NCBI GenBank assembly: GCA_015494795.1
Contig: WGAM01000018.1
Span: 1 to 33,137 of the forward strand
Source: Campylobacterota bacterium
GTDB lineage: Bacteria; Campylobacterota; Campylobacteria; Campylobacterales; Sulfurovaceae
DNA length: 33,137 nucleotides
Direction: 5' to 3'
The position numbers and the translations under genes are program-made. Shown here piece after piece: positions 7,530-16,450 of this stretch (the first letter of the stretch is position 1; the number at the start of each line of letters is the position of its first letter). Below the pieces are notes generated by a model that saw only the letters and a program-made list of their open reading frames with translations, did not search any database and was not told where the DNA came from.

Positions 7530-7535
7530 TCTATC
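7521..7535. terminator. Palindrome spanning both stop codons of convergent minE and slt
   Basis: GATAGAT-A-ATCTATC is a 15-base near-perfect palindrome covering the minE TAA (7527-7529) and the slt TAG (7531-7533 on the minus strand). As RNA it forms a 6-bp AGATAG/CTATCT stem on either strand. It may act as a weak bidirectional terminator; there is no strong T-run. Confidence 0.3.
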
Positions 7536-9123
7536 TAAATTTATCTGTCTCTAATGGTTTATCTAACTGATTTAATAGGGTAGTAATTTTAGTTTTAACT
7601 CCTAAAAGATTTAGATATATGACATAATTTGTTAAAACTTTTTTTGCATACTCCTTACTCTCTGCATAATCAATAAGTTCCATACTTAAATATGGCTCAT
7701 ATCTACCTCTTTTAAACATATTATCTTTTCTAAGAGTTCTTTTTGTAAAACCTATTCCACCATTATAGGCATAGGCTATAAATAGAGGGTGATATAGAAA
7801 TCTATTTAAATAATCTAAATGTCTATTGGCATAATCTATGGCTATATAGGGGTCAAACATATCATCTAAATCAATCTTCTCTTTTTTCTGTTTTGCTAGA
7901 TGTTTAATAAGAAATGGCATTATCTGCATCATACCTAAAGCATAAGCTGGAGATACTGAGGCTGGTACAAATCTACTCTCTTGTCTAGCAATGGCATATA
8001 TTAGTGCCACTCTTTTAATATCTTTTCCAATCATAGCATCTCTATATGGCATTGGAAAATACTGCTCTTTATAATTTGATGCCTTCTCTTTTAGATAACA
8101 GTAAACCCCCTCTGTTATTGTACTTCTATAGTTATCTGCTAAAAACTCCATACTCTCTGGGTGTTCTCTCATTGATATTTTTATCTTCTCCCAATCTATT
8201 GGATTATATGGGTCAAAATACTCTACTAAATGTAGTCCTAAATTAGGTGTAATAACTTTAGGATATTTTTTTCGTAAAATATCTCTAGCTCTAAGTGTAA
8301 ATAGGTTAATTTGATTACTCTTGAGTAGAAGTTTTAGATAACTTCTATCTTTAGTTAAAAGATATAACCAAAAATTACACTTATCATGTACTGACTGTTT
8401 CTTATTCTTCTCTTTTGCTTTTTTAAGATAATATACTGCTCTATCTTTATTATTAAACTCAACTGCATTCATAGCTAATAGAAAAGTACTCTTATATGGT
8501 AGGGTCTCTATTGGTGTATTGAGTAGAGACTTTTTTAACTTATCTAAAGCAGGAGTAGTAATTATCTTAAAGAGAGTCAATCTAAATGCTTTTTCTAAAA
8601 CCAATTTTTCTAACTGCTCTTTAGAAAATGGATAGTTAAAATATCTCTTCCTATATTTAGTTTTACATCTATTAAAGATATAACATTGAGATTTAGGAGA
8701 GATACCTTTTAGAGCTTCAAATGGATTATCACTACTCATAACTTTTAATACATCTGAGTGTTGTCCTCTCTTCAATATCTTTTGATAGAGCTTCTTTAAA
8801 CTACTCTTACTCTTTTTAATTGCAACCTCTGGATAGATAATAAAATTAGATGGGTCTTTTTGAGTTTTAATCTTTTTATCTGGAATAGTCCCAATAATCT
8901 TTTTAATAGCCTTTTTTATCTTATAGCTTTTTCTTTTTGCTAAATTATAAGCCTTTAGTGCTTCATCTCTATTTGGTTTCGTCTCATTTAGAAACCTCCA
9001 AATATAGTAATCTCTACTATATGAAGAGGGCATCTTTTTTATCTCATCTAAAGAGAATACCTTAGCATATATAGTAGTGGTGACAAATATAAAAACTAAA
9101 ATAGCTTTTATTATAAGAGTCAT
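7531..9123 (-). CDS. slt: Soluble-type lytic murein transglycosylase
   Basis: This 530-residue protein cleaves the MurNAc-GlcNAc bond of peptidoglycan in the periplasm, forming 1,6-anhydroMurNAc. It has a signal peptide at 1-20 (TTIYA), a long alpha-helical superhelical region at about 25-365, and a C-terminal lysozyme-like SLT domain from about 370. The domain has catalytic E382 in ARQESRF, then SPAYALGMMQIMP and an AYNGG motif. All SLT signature blocks are intact. Its ATG directly abuts the yggT stop, in the order gltX-yggT-slt that I recall from Campylobacter jejuni. Confidence 0.92.
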   Translation of the reverse strand: MTLIIKAILVFIFVTTTIYAKVFSLDEIKKMPSSYSRDYYIWRFLNETKPNRDEALKAYNLAKRKSYKIKKAIKKIIGTIPDKKIKTQKDPSNFIIYPEVAIKKSKSSLKKLYQKILKRGQHSDVLKVMSSDNPFEALKGISPKSQCYIFNRCKTKYRKRYFNYPFSKEQLEKLVLEKAFRLTLFKIITTPALDKLKKSLLNTPIETLPYKSTFLLAMNAVEFNNKDRAVYYLKKAKEKNKKQSVHDKCNFWLYLLTKDRSYLKLLLKSNQINLFTLRARDILRKKYPKVITPNLGLHLVEYFDPYNPIDWEKIKISMREHPESMEFLADNYRSTITEGVYCYLKEKASNYKEQYFPMPYRDAMIGKDIKRVALIYAIARQESRFVPASVSPAYALGMMQIMPFLIKHLAKQKKEKIDLDDMFDPYIAIDYANRHLDYLNRFLYHPLFIAYAYNGGIGFTKRTLRKDNMFKRGRYEPYLSMELIDYAESKEYAKKVLTNYVIYLNLLGVKTKITTLLNQLDKPLETDKFR

Positions 9124-9402
9124 CTATATAGCCATTACCGAACGCATTAGAAGTGTATCTATAAACTGTAATCCAAATATAATTACAATTGGGGATAAAT
9201 CAATACCAGAAAAGATAACAAAAGGCATTTTTCTTCTTACAAAAGCAAAAGCTGGTTGAGTAAGACGATTTAAAACATCAACAATAGGATTTCTTGGGTC
9301 TGGCTGAACAAAAGATAGTACAGCAGATATAATAATAACCCAAATATATAGACTAATAACTGAATGTATCAGTTGAACAATAGCAAAAATTAATGCACTC
9401 AT
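9124..9402 (-). CDS. YggT family membrane protein
   Basis: This 92-residue protein has two hydrophobic helices (about 5-30 and 63-85) flanking the conserved linker, with FVQPDPRNPIVDVLNRLTQP as signature. YggT proteins are poorly understood envelope proteins linked to osmotic tolerance and, in Gram-positives, to division. The ATG at 9400-9402 overlaps the end of the gltX-like gene by 4 bases, and its stop abuts the start of slt, so all three are co-translated. Confidence 0.9.
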   Translation of the reverse strand: MSALIFAIVQLIHSVISLYIWVIIISAVLSFVQPDPRNPIVDVLNRLTQPAFAFVRRKMPFVIFSGIDLSPIVIIFGLQFIDTLLMRSVMAI

Positions 9403-10583
9403 GATGCAACCTCCAAAATATAATATTTAATTAGTGGATATATCTCACTAAGTTTAGGGCTATTTTCACTCCCTGTTAATAAAATCTGTAGTGGTTTAGA
9501 TAGGTTCTCTCCCTCTAAACCACTTTTAACTCTAATATACTCTCTAAAATCATTAAAATCATCAATTATAGGAGCATTTATAATTATATTCTCTATAATC
9601 CTCATCTCTCTACCCCATTTGGAGTTAAAATCTTTAGGTTTAAATATACTTTTAATTCTATTCTCTAACTCATTGAGAGTAGAGTCTTCATTTAGATATA
9701 ACTTAGCAAGTTTTCCAATAGAGCTATCTGCAAATCCAAAAACTCTTGATAACTCTTTATCATCTAATCTCTTTAGATGTTCTCTATTTATATCCCGAAG
9801 TCTATCCATATCAAACTTATAAGATTTAGAGATTTGATTTAAATTAAACCACTCAATAGCCTCTGGAAGAGTAAATATCTCTTTGGGTGGATTTTTATAT
9901 CCTAAAAGAATTAGATAATTTAATATCGCATCTGCAATAAATCCTTGTTTAAATAGAGTTTTGATAGTTATATTACCCATATTTTGATTATGAATATGTA
10001 CATATTTTGTATCTTCTAAATATCCTAATGACTCTTTTATATATACCTCTTTAGGAGTTCTATCTATCTCTTTTTTATCTCTAATAATAAACTCTATACC
10101 ACTAAGCATATCATCACAAGCTGATGCAAATATATCGGTTGGAGTTCCATCTGATTTTAAGATTATAAAATCTCCAATCTCATCTAAAGGAGTTACAACT
10201 TCTCCTTTTATAAAGTCACTATATATAATATCTTTTTTAGGCTTTTTAATAGCTATAAAACTATCTCTACTCTTCTCTTTAATCTCTTCTAAATTAGAGT
10301 TACAGATAAAAGCTCGTCCATTTTTTAAAACTCTTAATGCTAAATTTTGATAGATATTTAGATGTTCACTCTGATGATATACTAAATCATGTTTAATAGC
10401 AAACTTTTCTAAAATCATCATAATTTCACTATCTCTACCTTTTATATCTTCTTTAGAGATAGTAATATCATCAATACGAACTAAAAATCTATCTTCTCTC
10501 TGTTGTGCAACAATATAGTTTAATATAGCTACTCTAAGAGAGGCTATATCCATATCTATTGGCATTGAGGCAAATCGAAGCAT
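9399..10583 (-). CDS. Glutamyl-tRNA synthetase homologue lacking catalytic signatures
   Basis: This 394-residue protein is clearly of the GluRS family: LRVAILNYIV near the N-terminus, FIILKSDGTPT, then LNYLILLGYKNPPKEIFTL with EAIEWF. It is shorter than normal (about 430-470). The HIGH motif is replaced by MDIAS (residues 11-15), RIEDTD by RIDDIT, TPTYNFA by TPTDIFA, RGEDH by RDKKE, and the KMSKR loop is gone, with about ten residues missing near 198-204. It should therefore not activate glutamate. It sits where the gltX gene is expected in the gltX-yggT-slt cluster. The reading frame is intact with a good AGGAG site and promoter, so it is not a decayed pseudogene by frame. A working GluRS must be encoded elsewhere. 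Family placement is sure; function is unknown. Confidence 0.85.
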   Translation of the reverse strand: MLRFASMPIDMDIASLRVAILNYIVAQQREDRFLVRIDDITISKEDIKGRDSEIMMILEKFAIKHDLVYHQSEHLNIYQNLALRVLKNGRAFICNSNLEEIKEKSRDSFIAIKKPKKDIIYSDFIKGEVVTPLDEIGDFIILKSDGTPTDIFASACDDMLSGIEFIIRDKKEIDRTPKEVYIKESLGYLEDTKYVHIHNQNMGNITIKTLFKQGFIADAILNYLILLGYKNPPKEIFTLPEAIEWFNLNQISKSYKFDMDRLRDINREHLKRLDDKELSRVFGFADSSIGKLAKLYLNEDSTLNELENRIKSIFKPKDFNSKWGREMRIIENIIINAPIIDDFNDFREYIRVKSGLEGENLSKPLQILLTGSENSPKLSEIYPLIKYYILEVAS

Positions 10584-10609
10584 TAACTCTCCTATAAATT
10601 ATTGCCATA

Positions 10610-10615
10610 ATTATA
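10610..10615 (-). promoter_or_regulatory. Probable -10 box for the gltX-like-yggT-slt operon
   Basis: On the minus strand this is TATAAT within GATTATAATTATGG. The expected start is near 10603, 10-15 bases before the AGGAG site at 10588-10592. Confidence 0.5.
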
Positions 10616-10653
10616 ATCTATTTTATTAAAATATCAAATATTATTATAATTTT

Positions 10654-13534: not shown

Positions 13535-16450
13535 TTAACTACTCTCTTCATAGTGTAGTTGTAACCCTTCGCTACTCATCATAAATCCACTAATATAGAT
13601 TTTACCACTATGAACTAACTTATGGTGTTTTTTACAGAGTGGAATAAGATTATATTTATGGTTTTTATTAAAACTACTCTCTTTTTGTGGAGTTATATGG
13701 TGTGTATCTTCTGCCATATCGCTACATAAAGCACACTTAGTTATATATAGATTTTTATTATATCTACTTCTCTTTTTACTCTTTATACTCTTAAGTTCAG
13801 ATTGATTTCCAATAATAGAGTCTCTAATTCTATAGGCATTTTTTAGAAAACTCTTATCCATATGTAGAGATTTAGCAAACTCTAACCCATATAGAGAACT
13901 CCCCATACCAAGTTGTAGCTCTCTATTATATATTAATCTATCACTACTCTCATCATATCTTACACCAAGATGTAAAAATATAAGCTCTTTAATATCTTGA
14001 AGTTCATTAATATTTTTTAATTGATGTAGATGTGTTGCAAATATAAATGTAGCCTTTAGCTCCAAGAGTTTAAGAATTGCTCCTGATACTATGGCAACAC
14101 CTGATTCTGTCTCTGTTCCTTGTGATATTTCATCTCCTAAGATAAGACTATTAGAGGTTGCACGATTAAAGATATTTTTTAACTCCATCATCTCTACTGA
14201 AAATGTAGATAGTCCCTTATATAGATTATCTTTAGATACAATCCTTGTAAATATCTTATCATACATACTAAATTTAAGCTCAACTGCTGGAACAAAAAAA
14301 CCTGCTTGAGCTAAAATAACAGCTAATCCAATACTCTTCATAAGAGATGATTTTCCAGATGAGTTAATACCATATAGTAAGACTCCACTAACTCTCTTCC
14401 CTCCACTTGCATTTAGTGTAATGTGGTTATGAGTTGTCTTAATCCCCTCTCCTAGATATATATCATTTGGTACATATATTCCACTCTTCTCATTAGCTTC
14501 AATAATTAAGTGTCTAAGTCCAATAGCTTCAAATCCACTTCCCTCTTTAGTAATAATTGGTCTAGTTAAATTTAACTCTTTAGCAGATTTTGCATTAGAT
14601 ACTGCCACATCAATATCGGCAATAAATGAGATAATATCATCAAGTAGTCGCGAAAATCTCTTATCTAACTCATCTAAACTATCTATATATCTACTCTTTA
14701 CAAGAGCTACTAATTTTACCTGATTACTATCATAATTTTGAGTTATCTCTTCAAATAGAGGTGAGTTTATCTTAACACTATTTTTTAATATCTTATATCT
14801 AAAATCTTTAAAGAAATAGTGAGTTTTATTAATAGTAACAAAAGAGTCCTTTAACTCTTTCTCTATCATCTTAAATCTATTTTTAGTTAGATTAATAGTA
14901 AATCCCTCACTCTCTAAATAGCCTATCTCTGCATAGATTTTTTTTGAGCTATTTTTCTTCTCTTTTTGGATAAATAGTTTATCTATATGAGATACTACCT
15001 CTTCTAATTTTACAATTTCACTCTTCTGTTTATCTAATAGATTATCTATAATAGGATAAGTTCCCTCTTTAAATATATTATCATCAATCTGGTCTATTCT
15101 AAATTTAGCACAGATATTTAAATCAAATCTCTCTTTTAAATAACTCTTAAACTCCTCTACACCATCATATAGTTTACTATCATAGTTAATTTTATCTTTT
15201 GATAAATCTTTTAAGAGATTAGATATAGCATATAGTGACATATTCATATATGTAAGCTCTATTGGGTGTAGTTTTTGAAGTTTTATCCGTCTTAATATTC
15301 TCTCTAAATCATATATATTTTTTAGATGAGTCTCATATCTTTTACTATTTTTTATAAGTTTTGTAGATAAATCATATCTAGCCTCTAATATCTCCTTATC
15401 TACTATTGGAGAGAGTAGTCTCTCTTTTAATAGTCTCTTTCCAAATGCTGTAGAAGTTTTATCTATAAGTTTTAAAAGAGTTAGCTCCTTACTATCTTTA
15501 GATATAACTCCTAACTGCTCTAGTGCATTATTTCCCAAATATAGATATTTGCTACCACCTAAAAATAGAGGTCTATTCATCTTCTCTATAATAGCCTCAT
15601 CATGCTCTATAATAAAATCGATTAGTATTGCTAAAGACTCTGTAGTATATGGGTGTCTCTCTAAATCCATATACTCAATAGCAGATAAAAAAGAGTTTAT
15701 CTGATAGACTCTCTTAAATAGTTCATTTTGATAATCTATCTTACATCTATTTGAGTTAAAAGATATATGGTATTGATGAAATTCTAAATAGTTACTAATC
15801 CACTCTCTATCTATTGATTTATTATCAATGGTAATAATAATCTCTGCTGTATTGTATGTTTGTAGAAGATTAAAAAGCTCATCTAGTGCATAGGTTTTAT
15901 CATCTCTAGTTGAGTGCATCTCATTTACTATTGTTTTGCCTGTTGTAACATCAATAGCACTATATCCAACAGAGTATATTCCTCCATTCTCATCTATAAT
16001 GACAGATACAATATTATTTTCATTAACTTCTGTCTGATACTCAAAATTTGTCCCTGGAGATATAATATTTGAGATATATCTTGTAATTTTGGGTGGAGTC
16101 CCTTTCTGTTTAACCATTACAATAGTATATTTTTTAGTATCAATCAATCTAGCTAAATATCTCTCAATAGATACAGTAGGAACACCTGCAAGTAGTGGAT
16201 TTTTTATGGAGTTTTGGGCTATAGCCTTATTTTTTCTTGTTAGTTGAATATTTAAAAGAGTAGCTATCTCTTTAGCTTTCCCTATCTTTAGCTCATCATT
16301 ATTAACTTCATATATCTCAAAAAAGCTACCTATCTCAATAAGAATAATAGTATCATTCCCATACTTATTTTCAAAATATTTTTGAAGTTCAAAATAGATT
16401 TCTGTAAGTAATTTTCCCTTTTGATTTAAAATTTTTGATACTTTTTCCAA
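13535..16450 (-). CDS. mutS: MutS7-type mismatch-binding ATPase fused to an HNH nuclease domain
   Basis: This 971-residue protein has an N-terminal mismatch-recognition domain retaining the Phe-x-Glu motif (GSFFEIYE, F43 and E45), then connector, core and clamp regions. The ATPase has Walker [10 protein letters not shown] (about 693-701), Walker [13 protein letters not shown] (about 768-779) and an ATHLH switch near 804. The last 65 residues, from about 905, form an HNH domain: [22 protein letters not shown] and a final VHSG. This matches the MutS7 subfamily of Campylobacterota, giant viruses and octocoral mitochondria. The fusion could recognise a mismatch and nick DNA without MutL or MutH. 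The start is TTG at 16448-16450 with AGGTGA upstream; an in-frame stop excludes an earlier start. A hairpin precedes the ribosome site. Confidence 0.93.

Follow-up and report, generated by a model that had tools for sequence, protein, structure and literature searches.

A disarmed GltX2-type glutamyl-tRNA synthetase kept under purifying selection in GlnRS-bearing Campylobacterota

The window, i.e., the whole 33,137-nucleotide stretch of DNA analysed here, carries a GltX2 (GluRS2) orthologue that has lost its catalytic motifs, and such disarming has occurred independently in at least six families of the order. That the loss of GltX2 catalysis was triggered by the gain of a glutaminyl-tRNA synthetase (GlnRS) appears very probable from the sequences compared, and it is likely that the overall course was one of a takeover by GlnRS in which GltX2 was disarmed yet retained under selection. 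The gene, designated gltX2*, its motifs, and its neighbours are located as follows.

7531..9123, minus strand: slt, encoding a lytic transglycosylase, last of the three genes in the conserved run
9124..9402, minus strand: yggT, its ATG overlapping the gltX2* stop (ATGA)
9399..10583, minus strand: gltX2*, catalytically disarmed GluRS2 (GltX2) orthologue, 394-aa open reading frame
9409..9414, minus strand: Shine-Dalgarno GGAGGT of yggT, within the C-terminal codons of gltX2* (LEVAS), from the sequence
9984..9989, minus strand: approximate site of the deleted KMSKR loop, at about residues 199-200 (alignment gap)
10068..10082, minus strand: former RGEDH, now RDKKE, residues 168-172 (alignment)
10125..10145, minus strand: former TPTYNFA, now TPTDIFA, residues 147-153 (alignment)
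10461..10478, minus strand: former RIEDTD, now RIDDIT, residues 36-41 (alignment)
10542..10553, minus strand: former HIGH (HIGN) motif, now DIAS, residues 11-14 (alignment)
10587..10593, minus strand: Shine-Dalgarno AGGAGAG of gltX2*, 3 bases upstream of the start, from the sequence
10610..10637, minus strand: promoter-like TTGATA-16-TATAAT upstream of gltX2* (consensus match only)

Alignment of the window protein with 106 orthologues bore out every motif change claimed in an initial annotation of this DNA, namely, the replacement of HIGN, RIEDTD, TPTYNFA, and RGEDH as well as the loss of the KKMSKR segment, and revealed in addition that FAPSPTGD has become FASMPI-D. The reading frame and the ribosome site were also present as described, and the position of the gene does match that in relatives, with the gltX2-yggT-slt order found in 79 of 80 of them and interrupted by a contig end in the remaining one. 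The intact promoter proposed earlier held in part only: the sigma-70-like sequence at 10637-10610 agrees with the consensus at 11 of 12 positions, but promoter-like sites are no more numerous in the region overall than in its shuffled versions. Elsewhere in the window, positions 13535-16450 of the minus strand encode a 971-aa MutS-like protein with a C-terminus resembling an HNH nuclease domain, presumably as in MutS7-type proteins.

The kinship to canonical GluRS implied by the initial annotation had to be revised, as the gene is a member of the GltX2 subfamily (MLRFAPSP / HIGN) and not of canonical GltX1. The closest matches to the window protein in relatives are proteins that start with MLRFAPSPTGDMHIGNLR, which is the GltX2/GluRS2 type, and the protein nests with the intact GltX2 of its own family at the conserved locus. 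The GluRS2 of Helicobacter pylori is presumably of the same MLRFAPSP...HIGN type. That enzyme misacylates tRNA-Gln only (PMC9976931), and the H-phi-G-N form of the HIGH motif given for epsilon-proteobacterial GluRS2 in the cited part of PMC3927822 fits the GltX2 identity of the window gene, which is a GltX2/GluRS2 orthologue that lost its catalytic motifs.

Both Pfam (tRNA-synt_1c) and NCBIfam place the window protein among the class I Glu/Gln synthetases. Its score against gltX_bact (TIGR00464) is 197.9 bits, under the curated equivalog cut-off of 289.95, which together with DIAS in place of HIGH and the missing KMSKR sets it apart from active bacterial GluRS; from GluQRS it is separated by a score of 79.4 bits against a cut-off of 276.7 and by the presence of a C-terminal anticodon-binding domain. 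The hallmarks of a pseudogene (stops, frameshifts, an omega near 1) are missing, and the combination of lost catalytic residues with subsequent purifying selection marks it, as far as its sequence tells, as a real pseudoenzyme, predicted by the motif loss to glutamylate neither tRNA-Gln nor tRNA-Glu. Proteins of this kind match GluRS profiles below the cut-off, and looser annotation rules could call them glutamate-tRNA ligases. An AlphaFold2 model built from an alignment of the window and related loci (pLDDT, 91.2; pTM, 0.87) was grouped by Foldseek and VIA-align with full-length GluRS including the anticodon-binding domain, the best VIA-align partner being the H. pylori GluRS (6b1p; Z of 32.0 across 386 residues), followed by 3afh from Thermotoga maritima (31.8), with the GluQRS fold at 24. 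The model thus confidently predicts an intact full-length GluRS fold, in keeping with the earlier statement that the GluRS scaffold is kept.

The gene is not the only gltX of its genome: a search for a canonical copy found an intact GltX1 of 461 aa and, besides, a GlnRS of 752 aa whose C-terminal part is GatB/YqeY-like (a GlnRS-YqeY fusion). GatB is encoded as well and scores over its cut-off in 27 of 34 genomes from the genus, while no AsnRS-like match over the curated cut-off was found in any of the 34, so that GatCAB is probably kept for Asn-tRNA-Asn. Two families of the order, f14 and f17 (e.g., G049, G052, and G071), yielded neither GlnRS nor GltX2, and GltX1 is presumably non-discriminating there.

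Dasgupta and Basu (2014; PMC3927822) described the co-occurrence of GlnRS and GluRS2 in six epsilon-proteobacteria and, in the cited passages, attributed the YqeY-fused GlnRS to transfer from Deinococcus-Thermus and suggested, from the obligatory GluRS2 of these bacteria, that it is GlnRS that may be non-functional. A still-working GltX2 beside an inactive GlnRS is extremely improbable here, given that the GlnRS is full length (704 bits against a cut-off of 426) with an omega of 0.107 and that the GltX2 active site is lost. The present data therefore reverse that guess, as worded in the cited passages, on which of the two enzymes has lost its activity.

The distribution of GlnRS across the order is patchy, with the enzyme present in 49 of 160 sampled genomes and in 26 of the 34 of the genus. 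We fetched 107 GltX2 sequences, comprising all clear ones from genomes with GlnRS and a selection made by hand to span the rest, and scored them on six catalytic motifs; fragments or split sequences (G002, G025, and G075) were left unscored, and three genomes in which pieces of GlnRS were found (G010, G026, and G150) were reassigned to the GlnRS-bearing group. The fragmentary G002 also carries GlnRS pieces. With GlnRS present, 55 of the 56 scoreable GltX2 proteins retained four or fewer of the six motifs, and with GlnRS absent, 47 of 48 retained five or six. A search for GlnRS pieces in three genomes with intact GltX2 (G012, G015, and G028) found none. The two exceptions were G163, in which GlnRS adjoins an intact GltX2 and was perhaps acquired recently, and G186, a 480-contig assembly with a disarmed GltX2 and no GlnRS found. 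A second set of GTDB species genomes, partly overlapping the first, gave a similar picture, with 19 of 21 loci in which GlnRS adjoins gltX2 being disarmed; the two intact ones were L222 (G163 again) and L226.

One sequence taken at first for a disarmed GltX2, that of G075, was rejected as such, being of the intact type and split by a frameshift in the assembly: in a genome that is otherwise close to complete, the sequence at locus L136 (G075:C1:1540045-1541936) is spread over two frames, which points to either an assembly error or a recent frameshift. It was also observed that glnS adjoins gltX2 in many lineages of several families (L103, L104, L108-L110, L112, L118, L123-L127, L131, L137, L138, and part of L191-L261), though gltX2 tracks the family tree; this adjacency would be accounted for if glnS was acquired at the gltX2-yggT locus via homologous recombination. 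A role of GltX2 as a partner of GlnRS was considered because of it and set aside, as GlnRS persists where gltX2 is gone and the adjacency may reflect recombination.

The association with GlnRS arose more than once. With the motif columns left out of the GltX2 tree, families f4, f8, f16, and f20 each formed one side of a branch, and in f1, f4, f6, f8, f16, and f20 the disarmed proteins were interspersed with intact ones from the same family. The minimum number of state changes on this tree was 17, and phylogenetically independent pairs stood 9:0 for the association of GlnRS with disarming (median p, 0.004). Since GltX2 sorts by family, the disarmed form was not itself spread by transfer and the losses are convergent. 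The GlnRS tree, in turn, is incongruent with the families, which is consistent with repeated transfer.

Family-balanced profiles were used to follow loss and retention by residue. In the disarmed proteins residues 1-15, 31-45, 196-210, and 226-255, which form the active site, were lost, as was the conserved segment GLKGKALFKPLR in the C-terminal domain (residues 391-420), which we take, by its position, to be the anticodon loop. In most disarmed proteins, and in each of the six families, K400 was replaced by E or D, and F403, a conserved residue assigned to the same loop by position, was likewise lost. G200 was often D or E and N16 often D, these positions being acidic in all or most families, and the net charge per 100 residues fell from -0.9 in canonical to -3.5 in disarmed proteins, with a drop in every family; slt, used as a control in Sulfurovaceae, showed no acidic shift. 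The Zn-site cysteines were retained in most disarmed copies and are absent from the window protein, and R3, D188/D189, N307, G331, and K335 persisted in independently disarmed families. From the motif loss, the change of K400 to E or D, and the net acidification, we infer that disarmed GltX2 has lost productive binding of ATP, Glu, and tRNA while keeping its scaffold; for gltX2* itself, loss of tRNA-Gln binding is probable. The tRNA-binding role proposed in the initial annotation is accordingly disfavoured, and a tRNA-chaperone role was downgraded on the same grounds, namely, the acidic character of the disarmed proteins and the loss of K400 and F403 in all families. Could the protein instead have turned to another reaction, for example, on a different adenylated or glutamylated substrate? 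The predicted intact class I fold would allow it, and GluQRS shows that GluRS paralogues can switch acceptor, but HIGH and KMSKR, required for class I ATP activation, are both lost, and with G200 and N16 acidic as described we regard such an activity as very improbable.

The window gene and its closest relative (G000/G016) share every loss, so their divergence postdates the disarming. Pairwise omega, determined with a simple GY94 model, was 0.18 for this pair (dS, 0.42; LRT against 1, 66.9), and for other genes of the same two genomes it was 0.075 (slt), 0.095 (kdsA), 0.107 (GlnRS), and 0.027 (yggT). Other disarmed GltX2 pairs gave 0.10-0.36 and canonical pairs with usable dS 0.03-0.05; pairs with saturated dS (G110/G159, G129/G103, G111/G124, G035/G185, and others) were discarded. 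Neutral simulation led to about 11 stops per lineage, with 0 of 300 runs stop-free, and neither a stop nor a frameshift was observed in the disarmed gltX2 lineages of G000 and G016. At polar positions, classified by a third species, five of the six disarmed pairs had an omega of 0.13-0.25 and the sixth (G115/G128) one of 0.41. The best reading is that disarmed gltX2 evolves under relaxed yet clearly purifying selection, and the earlier claim of a maintained frame rather than decay stands. The constraint could be due in part to maintenance of the fold and to the overlap with yggT. A gene on its way out, caught before stops build up, would fit the graded series from intact (G163) through partial (G174/G029) and truncated (G073/G183) to deleted (G006), but this transitional decay is contradicted by the omega of 0.10-0.36 in pairs with shared losses and by the absence of the expected stops, and it has very little probability.

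The overlap itself was examined more closely. In nearly all of the relatives read, the gltX2 and yggT genes overlap, as either ATGA or TAATG, and the TTGGAGGT tail with the yggT ribosome-binding site is likewise present in nearly all of them, intact and disarmed alike, which accounts for the conservation of the extreme C-terminal tail. An apparent better conservation of the C-terminal region in disarmed than in canonical proteins mostly vanished when the canonical ones were limited to the same six families. The sister species G006 is closely related (slt 87%, kdsA 90%, and yggT 90% identical), and there the deletion of gltX2 has left some 20 codons between kdsA and yggT (L275, 3330-3500) that resemble residues 210-228 of the window protein, with GGAGGTGAG retained ahead of yggT. 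Shortened copies were found in G183 and G073, the gene is missing from f9, part of f6, and G161, and no gltX2 match was found in the stretch upstream of yggT-slt in G041, G044, G064, G116, and G161.

A serious rival, although one we hold to be unlikely, is that the frame is a mere passenger, kept open for the yggT ribosome site and translational coupling and with selection against misfolding only, the protein itself having no function; the fold would then be preserved and the functional surfaces would drift. The GGAGGT inside the LEVAS codons, the near-universal overlap, and the retention of GGAGGTGAG before yggT in G006 all agree with it, as does the better retention of hydrophobic than of polar invariants (37/63 versus 21/63). 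However, coupling bears on stops and on the 3' end but not on all 394 codons; polar positions are themselves constrained in five of the six disarmed pairs; whole-gene omega is near that of the neighbouring slt (0.075-0.145); and similar scaffold residues are kept across independently disarmed families.

We therefore favour a takeover by GlnRS with GltX2 retained. In bacteria without GlnRS, GltX2 glutamylates tRNA-Gln, with GatCAB then amidating the product. The lineage would have gained the GlnRS-YqeY fusion horizontally, and as this enzyme would charge tRNA-Gln directly, the catalytic job of GltX2 would have become redundant. GltX2* would persist as a non-catalytic scaffold, the likeliest role, most plausibly through pre-existing protein-protein contacts, possibly with GatCAB (still needed for Asn) or GltX1. 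That gltX2* retains a selected protein-level role is somewhat favoured by the evidence; that it is a partner of the amidation pathway in particular is doubtful. The deletion in G006 and the absence of the gene elsewhere imply that any role is optional, not essential, in the clade, and some GlnRS-bearing lineages have dropped the gene. For the new role put forward in the initial annotation, selection leaves a new or moonlighting function possible, but not an essential one; as a whole, that annotation rightly saw lost catalysis rather than ordinary decay and missed GlnRS as the cause, the convergence, and the GltX2 subfamily.

It has not quite an even chance that GltX2 had a second, catalysis-independent function from the start, retained after each gain of GlnRS. 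If so, the order would offer, many times over and independently, natural experiments in separating the functions of one synthetase, with selection stripping the charging and binding of tRNA-Gln, via convergent acidic substitutions, at each acquisition. In either case a synthetase has been disarmed repeatedly and predictably, very probably by the arrival of a rival enzyme, in at least six families and in a graded series from intact to deleted, and hidden non-catalytic synthetase roles as well as replacement of the indirect Gln-tRNA pathway become directly testable.

A literature search, with most subscription journals beyond its reach, found no published account of a disarmed GltX2. The co-occurrence of GlnRS and GluRS2 is the same as that reported by Dasgupta and Basu (2014), with the difference that GluRS2 is disarmed here, the cited passages of PMC3927822 mentioning no loss of GluRS2 motifs. 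The H. pylori GltX2/GluRS2 shares subfamily, fold, and domain order with gltX2*, which, unlike it, lacks the catalytic motifs, the KMSKR loop, and the anticodon-loop lysines and resides in a genome with GlnRS. GluQRS (YadB) is similar in being a GluRS-derived paralogue, with a weak profile match (79 bits) and a fold Z of 24, but it is catalytic and has no anticodon-binding domain, whereas gltX2* has a full C-terminal domain and no active site. A parallel in kind is HisZ, a synthetase-like pseudoenzyme in which a catalytically dead synthetase fold is kept under selection; HisZ is of a different class, however, and gltX2* would have arisen by GlnRS takeover, repeatedly.
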